Assembly (NCBI GenBank): GCA_947488235.1
Contig: CANLAQ010000003.1
Location: 1 to 64,000, forward strand
Direction: 5' to 3'
Source: Flavobacteriales bacterium
GTDB lineage: Bacteria; Bacteroidota; Bacteroidia; Flavobacteriales_D; Crocinitomicaceae
Length of the DNA: 64,000 nt
Shown here: piece after piece, positions 12,022 to 14,257 of the stretch
How positions within the stretch are numbered: the first letter of the stretch is position 1
Layout: the number at the start of each line of letters is the position of its first letter
Notes under the pieces: generated by a model
What the model saw: only the letters and a program-made list of their open reading frames with translations
The model's database searches: none
Told to the model about the DNA's origin: nothing
Program-made: the position numbers and the translations under genes

Positions 12022-12052
12022 CAAAGTTAAAAAATTAGTGGGGTTTTATCAA
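12022..12052 (-). promoter_or_regulatory. predicted promoter for the MBL-rhodanese gene (TTG-N20-TAACTTTG)
   Basis: Minus strand TTG (12050-12052), 20-nt spacer, TAACTTTG (12022-12029), about 20 nt before the ATG. Confidence 0.65.
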
Positions 12053-12850
12053 AAAGGCAGCTAAAACAATATAAATTGCAATCAATAATACGAAATAACC
12101 AAAATACTTTTTCAGTTTAGAGCCATTGATTTTGGCACCTAAAAGAAGTCCAATAAAAATGCCAAGAACTGAAGCAGCTGAAACATAAAGTAAAAGTCTC
12201 CAGTCTATTTGAGCATGTTGTTGAAAAGTACCTAAAAATCCAACGGAAGCATTCATTGCGATAATCAATAAAGAGGTTCCCACTGCTTTTTTCATAGGCA
12301 AACGCATGAGATTAATCAGAACAGGAATGATGACAAATCCTCCACCCGCGCCGATCAATCCAGCCAACAAACCAACTAGGAGCCCTTGAAGAATTAATTT
12401 AACTGCAAAAGAAAAGCTATTCGAATTTTTAGATATCGGAATCTCCTTTGGAGAATCACTTTTTATCATCTTAAAAGCAGCAATAAACATTACGATTGAA
12501 AATAAGACCAAGAGATAAATATCTTTTGAAAATGAAAATCCATCCAATGAAAATAATTCATCGGGCAAGAGCGGCATGATATAATTTCTGGTTAAATAAA
12601 TACTAATGATGGAAGGTATCCCAAAAAGAAAAGCGGCACGATAATCAATATTTCTATGATAAGCAGCTTTTCCAGCACCTACTGCCGAAGTAATTCCAAC
12701 AATAAATAAGGAATATAGAATGGCCAATTCTGTTGGAACATGAAATATATACACAAGTATAGGCAGCGTTAAAATAGAGCCTCCACTACCAATCAAGCCC
12801 AAGGTTAAACCAATAAAAAGCGCTGCAATGATGCCCAGAACAAATTCCAT
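12035..12850 (-). CDS. TauE/SafE family sulfite/sulfonate exporter-like permease
   Basis: Two GLIGAGGGF / GLIGSGGSILTLP repeats and multiple TM segments; alternative start at 12868. Confidence 0.9.
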   Translation of the reverse strand: MEFVLGIIAALFIGLTLGLIGSGGSILTLPILVYIFHVPTELAILYSLFIVGITSAVGAGKAAYHRNIDYRAAFLFGIPSIISIYLTRNYIMPLLPDELFSLDGFSFSKDIYLLVLFSIVMFIAAFKMIKSDSPKEIPISKNSNSFSFAVKLILQGLLVGLLAGLIGAGGGFVIIPVLINLMRLPMKKAVGTSLLIIAMNASVGFLGTFQQHAQIDWRLLLYVSAASVLGIFIGLLLGAKINGSKLKKYFGYFVLLIAIYIVLAAFLIKPH

Positions 12851-12943
12851 TGAAAATATTTTCAACAAAGGTGACTATAATTTGAAGATTAAGTGTAAGG
12901 TAAGTTACACAGATGAGAGCAATCAAAATTCAAGAGATTTAAG

Positions 12944-13046
12944 CTATTTCATGGGAGCAGCTCATTTCGACTACGCTCAATGAGCGATAAGTGGATCGAG
13001 CGGAGTCGAGAGACACTTTCAAAGAGTTTTGGACTATTTCATGGGA
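12944..13046. repeat. REP-like imperfect palindrome flanked by direct repeats
   Basis: Arms TTTCGACTACGCTCAAT (12965-12981) and ATCGAGCGGAGTCGAGA (12995-13011) match 14/17 as an inverted repeat; flanking CTATTTCATGGGA at 12944-12956 and 13034-13046. Confidence 0.8.
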
Positions 13047-13138
13047 TTGGTTGAATAATGTTGTACTTTCGCACTTTAAATACAGTTCTTTCGATTAAAA
13101 AGTTGTCCCAGGAATTGTAGATCACTTAAACAATTCGA

Positions 13139-14257
13139 ATGAATTTTGAACAACTTGGGGTCATTCCCACGATTTTAACCGCAATCGAAAAACAAGGTTA
13201 CACGCAAGCAACTCCTATCCAAGAAAAATCTATACCTATTGTCTTAAATCGCAGCGACCTAATTGGTTGTGCGCAAACAGGAACAGGTAAAACAGCTGCT
13301 TTTTCGATTCCGATTTTACAATTATTGTACGAAAGTCCTGAAAGAAAAAAACACGGAAAAATTCGCTCCTTGATTGTTACACCAACGAGAGAATTAGCCA
13401 TACAAATTGGAGAAAGTATTAAATTATACGGTCAAGGACTAAACATCCGTCATGCCGTAATTTTTGGTGGTGTATCACAACACAATCAAGTCAATCAATT
13501 AAAATCTCATGTAGATATTCTTATTGCTACACCTGGACGCTTATTAGACCTTATTCAACAAGGATTTGTGAAATTGAGCGATCTTGAGATCTTTGTTTTG
13601 GACGAGGCAGATAGAATGTTGGACATGGGTTTTATTCATGATATCAAAAAAATCATCAAATTACTTCCACAGAAAAGACAAAATTTATTTTTCTCTGCCA
13701 CCATGCCGAAAGAAATTATTGGTCTAGCGAATACGATCCTAACGGATCCTAAAATGGTAGAGGTTACCCCAATTGCATCTACTTCAGACTTGGTAGAACA
13801 GCATCTTTATTACATTGAGGCAGATGAGAAGAAAAGTCTCTTGATCAAAATGGTGAAAGATCAGCCAACTGCAAGGGTTTTGGTATTCACCAGAACGAAA
13901 CATGGAGCTGATAAAGTGGTGAAATTACTTCAAAAAGTACAGGTAAAAGCTGCTGCAATACATGGAAATAAATCTCAAAATGCAAGACAGAATGCATTGA
14001 GAGACTTTAAAGATCATTCGATTCAAGTATTGGTTGCAACAGACATTGCTGCACGCGGTATCGATATCGATGATTTGGAAATGGTATTGAATTATGAGGT
14101 TCCTAATATTCCTGAAACATATGTACATCGCATTGGAAGAACAGGAAGAGCAGGAGTTAAGGGTGTTGCAGTTTCTTTTTGTGATCAATCAGAAAGAGCT
14201 TACATTAAGTTAATTCAACGACTTACCAAAAAAGACCTCATCGTAAAAAAGTCTTAA
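13139..14257 (+). CDS. DEAD/DEAH box RNA helicase (RhlE-like)
   Basis: CAQTGTGKTAAF, PTRELAIQI, TPGRLLD, VLDEADRMLDMGF, SATMP, HRIGRTGRAG. Confidence 0.95.
   Translation: MNFEQLGVIPTILTAIEKQGYTQATPIQEKSIPIVLNRSDLIGCAQTGTGKTAAFSIPILQLLYESPERKKHGKIRSLIVTPTRELAIQIGESIKLYGQGLNIRHAVIFGGVSQHNQVNQLKSHVDILIATPGRLLDLIQQGFVKLSDLEIFVLDEADRMLDMGFIHDIKKIIKLLPQKRQNLFFSATMPKEIIGLANTILTDPKMVEVTPIASTSDLVEQHLYYIEADEKKSLLIKMVKDQPTARVLVFTRTKHGADKVVKLLQKVQVKAAAIHGNKSQNARQNALRDFKDHSIQVLVATDIAARGIDIDDLEMVLNYEVPNIPETYVHRIGRTGRAGVKGVAVSFCDQSERAYIKLIQRLTKKDLIVKKS

Follow-up and report, generated by a model that had tools for sequence, protein, structure and literature searches.

A doublet of REP-like hairpins located between a DEAD-box RNA helicase gene and a divergent TauE/SafE-family transporter gene was found to belong to a repeat family shared with related lake bacteria. 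It was studied in a stretch of 64,000 nucleotides of Flavobacteriales DNA (contig CANLAQ010000003.1), referred to below as the window. The finding is real and mostly ordinary: a member of a REPIN/BIME-like family, together with the footprint of a secondary duplication. The direct repeat now bracketing the doublet probably reflects a later local duplication of the block preceding the helicase promoter, next to an ancestral doublet that was in place before several of these lake bacteria diverged as species; it would not be an insertion scar.

The REP-like palindrome noted in the preliminary description was real, being multi-copy, intergenic, arranged as inverted pairs and composed of covarying hairpins (Table 1). 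Both hairpins displayed the core TCGACTNCGCTC, to which the window contained only these two matches, even with one mismatch allowed (0.2 expected), and their two 12-nt loops are mutually complementary. At stem position 1 the left arm carried T-A and the right arm C-G; each arm therefore keeps its own pair at this position, while pairing between arms is broken or reduced to G-T. No terminator and no known RNA family was found for the element.

Table 1. Positions of the features discussed; coordinates refer to the window unless a locus is given
Feature	Position	Strand	Remarks
TauE/SafE-family transporter gene	12035..12868	-	divergent neighbour of the helicase gene
Left direct-repeat copy	12929..12956	+	only in the window's genome; secondary duplication
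REP doublet	12960..13016	.	two inverted 26-nt hairpins and a 5-nt spacer; based on family copies and arm covariation
Left arm	12960..12985	+	GCTCATT (12960-12966), loop TCGACTACGCTC of 12 nt (12967-12978), AATGAGC (12979-12985); perfect 7-bp stem
Right arm	12991..13016	-	forward strand GTGGATC (12991-12997), GAGCGGAGTCGA (12998-13009), GAGACAC (13010-13016); minus-strand reading: stem GTGTCTC / GATCCAC, 12-nt loop TCGACTCCGCTC
18-nt deletion site relative to G098	13016..13018	.	between near-identical 11-mers TCGAGAGACAC / TCGAGAGATAC, by alignment
Right direct-repeat copy	13018..13046	+	original; single copy at the orthologous sites of relatives; overlaps the conserved block upstream of the helicase promoter
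Putative -7 box of helicase promoter	13064..13071	+	TACTTTCG here; TACTTTTG in six of nine species
DEAD-box RNA helicase gene (RhlE-like)	13139..14257	+
REP insertion in RAYT-like gene, L127 (G096:C5)	about 1640-1724
REP insertion in RAYT-like gene, L124 (G097:C7)	about 1640-1724

The window's own genome (2.45 Mb in 100 contigs, 89 % complete) contained 17 exact TCGACTNCGCTC cores at about 13 places, against none for the reversed-pattern control; these and the following counts stem from exact pattern searches, which miss diverged arms. The element is multi-copy, the arms recurring genome-wide as the preliminary description had supposed. The direct repeat, for which a genome-wide search had also been suggested, had no match outside the locus: when the whole region was searched against the own genome at the DNA level, off-locus matches were exclusively to REP copies. 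None of the 17 cores was located within an ORF of at least 120 aa, though such ORFs made up 76 % of the fetched DNA. Within the genus, ten genomes (own, G006, G058, G064, G076, G089, G091, G096, G097 and G098) harbored seven to 51 arms and the remaining 76 genomes zero to three each. Nine of the ten arm-rich genomes, and no others, had the helicase upstream region in common at an identity of at least 88 %. REP-rich genomes were also encountered elsewhere in the order.

Among 126 arms with distinct context, conservation began sharply at position -7 and stopped at +18 or +19, which delimited a 26-nt unit. Complementary pairs at stem positions 1, 4, 5 and 6 exceeded those of all 500 shuffles, as expected of hairpin-forming imperfect palindromes, and two-sided stem changes included C-G to T-A and G-C to T-A. 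Because of this within-arm covariation, each arm was taken to form its own hairpin. The GCTCATT-N12-AATGAGC hairpin, formerly described as competing with the longer palindrome, is thus present with a perfect stem, but it represents the unit itself. Two arm classes could be distinguished; pairing was mostly inverted, with core-to-core distances of 31 to 34 nt, and the clade held 31 distinct paired elements, that is, inverted REPs with a short spacer as in REPINs and BIMEs. Copies were numerous, interspersed and mostly extragenic, while their number remained low relative to classical REPs. The elements constitute a clade-specific REP-doublet family (BIME/REPIN-like) of non-identical 26-nt hairpins with 7-bp imperfect stems and 12-nt TCGACTNCGCTC loops. 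No match to the core was found among the papers searched, which is weak evidence since such sequences are often confined to figures or supplements.

Some further repeats were encountered around these copies. In several REP arms (L001 1501-1640, L009, L013) the loop was replaced by a longer palindrome, TACTTGTGCTGAGCCTGCCGAAGTA, and the orthologous loci differed in the loop carried, which looks like nested insertion or loop conversion. A longer repeat containing CCAAATTTGGTGGGGATTAAAAATACTTCGAA (L007 1-313, L174 600-1140, L002) occurred at more than ten places in G091; it often adjoined REP doublets, was also located at contig ends and was missing from the window.

REPINs are REP doublets forming hairpins (Bertels and Rainey 2011, PMC3116915); they occur in tandem clusters including flanking sequence, and their excision has been seen in population reads (PMC3116915). 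The present elements resemble them in being inverted short palindromes with a short spacer, intergenic, multi-copy, missing at some orthologous sites and found in tandem clusters with flanking sequence. Unlike REPINs, no copy found flanked a cognate RAYT, copies per genome amount to tens and not hundreds, and the arms are 26 nt long with 12-nt mutually complementary loops. Alternating orientation, two arm classes, mosaic arrays and intergenic location are shared with gammaproteobacterial BIMEs and RAYT-associated REPs (Nunvar et al. 2010, PMC2817692), from which the family differs by lacking both the GT(A/G)G head (GTRG within ten bases 5' of the stem in seven of 126 arms, and in two on the other side) and a RAYT flanked by two copies. 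CGTC-tagged REPs are known from five phyla, Bacteroidetes among them, and have no dedicated transposase (PMC3733652). Like these, the family consists of palindromes, mostly dimers, flanking no transposase gene; in contrast to them, it displays a 7-bp stem and a 12-nt loop versus their 8-9 bp and 4-5 nt, and CGTC was not encountered within ten bases of the stem on either side (0 of 126 arms). The family accordingly belongs to neither the GTAG- nor the CGTC-tagged superfamily. It looks and behaves like a REP doublet, without the tags and the RAYT association of the superfamilies described.

Bacteroidetes-type -7 motifs read TAnnTTTG. On the basis of this motif and of sequence conservation, a putative -7 box was assigned to the helicase gene. 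As the element and the two copies of the repeat lie upstream of it, the element would not be part of the helicase leader, where the preliminary description had placed it; the leader itself would measure about 65 nt, with a putative transcript start near 13076. In all nine species, the sequence beginning with ATGGGATT and extending across the -7 box into the leader was conserved, and the direct repeat overlapped the upstream edge of this block. The 5' leader (13072-13138) was nearly invariant in the nine species and its AAGTTGTCCCAGG might base-pair with CAACTTGGGG, located behind the start codon; the predicted fold was not significant (z -1.2). Leader conservation suggests that control may be exerted at the RNA level.

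The two copies of the direct repeat tightly bracket the doublet, as already described: they agreed at 13 of 13 positions in CTATTTCATGGGA and at 84 % over 25 nt, with a spacing of 90. Of 5000 dinucleotide shuffles of this intergenic region, only four produced an exact direct repeat of 13 nt within 120 bp. In the assembled sequence, the left copy rests on the junction between CATGGGA and GCAGCTCATT.

The history of the locus was examined in relatives, the named ones of which were lake metagenome genomes labelled Flavobacteriales or Crocinitomicaceae; all genomes were MAGs, one per species, and the duplication is known from this single locus. Four relatives (G091, G098, G058 and G076) yielded the TauE-helicase spacer; the region upstream of the helicase was additionally obtained from G064, G089, G096 and G097. 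A further entry, CAMDAH010000013.1 (L255), titled Chryseobacterium gleum, carried the helicase region of this Crocinitomicaceae-like clade, and its species label is probably wrong. G091 and G058 lacked the REP and displayed one repeat copy, in agreement with the single-copy empty site predicted in the preliminary description; empty sites with both copies were not seen. However, the REP-bearing orthologs also had one copy: in G098, G089, G097 and G096 the doublet occupied the orthologous site in the same orientation, with a repeat copy on the right only. The stretch linking REP and repeat, of the GATGAA(A/C)TC.AGAG..ACTTTCAAGAG type, was locus-specific and common to these four genomes, in which it was followed by the same promoter. 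In G076 just the right edge of the REP remained. Since four relatives share REP, site and right flank and a fifth retains a remnant, the REP was considered ancestral at this site; sites without it are probably losses. The left repeat copy would be later than the REP, given that REP-bearing orthologs have the right copy only.

The upstream gene differed in G089, G096 and G097, so the REP is older than the TauE neighbourhood. Among fetched loci, the copies closest to the window REP were its orthologs in G089, G098 and G096 (scores 49, 47 and 45); the best non-orthologous copy scored 44.5, a clear margin for G089 and G098 and a small one for G096. Relative to G098, the window REP has lost 18 nt at its right end, which is a typical slippage deletion, and in G096 and G097 the REP unit had undergone a tandem change in copy number, with extra units at the helicase site. 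At the start of the TauE gene (12750-12900), G098 displayed a tract of six sites resembling G058 and G076, which indicates that the locus has undergone recombination between species. In the species tree, the three closest genomes grouped as ((G091, G098), own), while the left part of the own locus shared the REP-less junction of G091. This tree does not fit the shared junction without recombination or lineage sorting, which is why the sequence in which duplication and loss took place is uncertain. A left spacer common to G098 and G076 was dismissed as a proof of ancestry, as it was not significant (136 of 2000 shuffles).

These observations are best accommodated if a doublet was placed upstream of the helicase promoter before TauE became its neighbour and was then inherited there, the direct repeat arising later, in the window's lineage. 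The most likely route would be a tandem duplication of the REP together with the promoter-upstream block, in which hairpins would have induced replication slippage or template switching; the first REP would then have been lost. Alternatively, REP-less and REP-bearing alleles may have been joined during recombination between strains. The own locus would then combine a G091-like REP-less allele on the left with a REP-bearing allele on the right, joined at the edge of the REP, its repeat copies originating from two alleles. Such an origin is possible, if somewhat doubtful. It agrees with the G091 junction on the left, with the recombinant tract seen in G098 and with the sequences of the copies: the left one displayed AAGC, like G091 and G098, whereas GGAC in the right one is nearer the GGGC of G058 and G076. 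Yet homologous recombination does not explain a join exactly at the REP edge, and few differences distinguish the alleles.

Reading the 28-29-bp repeat as a target-site duplication, produced when the doublet inserted into the REP-less allele now found in G091, was one of two interpretations offered by the preliminary description; the other, a footprint of duplication or recombination, is the one that stood. An insertion would account for the tight bracketing and for the left flank, which through the first copy was collinear with the one-copy empty site of G091. It is nevertheless very unlikely and was rejected, because the REP-bearing orthologs with the same site and right junction carry one copy and because few other doublets are flanked by repeats: most of 33 doublets had none, in contrast to the target duplications of MITEs, and the exceptions were mostly tandem REP units. 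Furthermore, the own copies have diverged (84 % identity over 25 nt) though the DNA around them matched G091 and G098 at about 99 % identity, a separate insertion of the REP, into a RAYT gene, produced no duplication, and IS200/IS605-type enzymes make none (PMC2817692). That two operator-like copies of the block around a hairpin control the divergent genes is suggested by the position between divergent promoters and by the overlap of the right copy with the conserved promoter-upstream block. This is extremely unlikely, as the second copy was encountered solely in the own genome and as four of the nine orthologous sites have kept an intact promoter with the REP missing or decayed, which also argues against an essential role of the REP. 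Local duplication beside an ancestral doublet is therefore retained as the probable origin of the repeat.

The family may have been spread by a single-strand (Y1, RAYT-like) transposase. Mobility was indicated by G096 and G097, in which a doublet interrupts a RAYT-like gene with intact orthologs in the own genome (L033), G091 and G076; the insertion replaced about 23 bp of its target. Y1 and RAYT genes, for which the preliminary description had proposed a search, do exist, and none of those checked was flanked by this REP. Among the fetched flanks of 76 Y1/RAYT loci the core was present in two only, both representing this one interruption, and no RAYT gene between two inverted copies of the REP was found among these 76 Y1-transposase loci. 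The same held for a cognate RAYT in the genus and in 16 REP-rich genomes of the order, an absence that is no proof since the genomes are incomplete MAGs. Two candidates of the own genome, an IS200-like TnpA (C15) and a RAYT-like gene (C4), were discarded as cognate enzymes, neither being flanked by this REP. Other repeats were located near both. Directly upstream of the IS200-like transposase gene (L032 1910-2382, G000:C15), a tandem run of about eight 46-50-bp units with a GAGCTTGCTTTTAAGCAAGCT-type hairpin may constitute a second REP-like array. Downstream of the RAYT-like gene (L033 1250-1460, G000:C4), the palindromes GGGCAATTGCCC and GTTGATTCGGGTATTCGG occur repeatedly and are candidates for its cognate REPs.

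A more far-reaching proposal is rather unlikely: that these are tagless REP doublets of freshwater Flavobacteriales whose arms can switch between two separate hairpins and one long cruciform via their complementary 12-nt loops, which are moved by an enzyme other than those identified, and which, at this locus, cause the block ahead of the helicase promoter to be duplicated in tandem and lost again and again.

The locus illustrates that a textbook insertion signature (an element, a direct repeat and a single-copy empty site) can mislead, and that element-bearing orthologs settle the matter. It also outlines a family of REP doublets in a group with few descriptions of such repeats. The losses, the tandem expansions and the one dated insertion seen in this family make a search for the mobilising enzyme possible.
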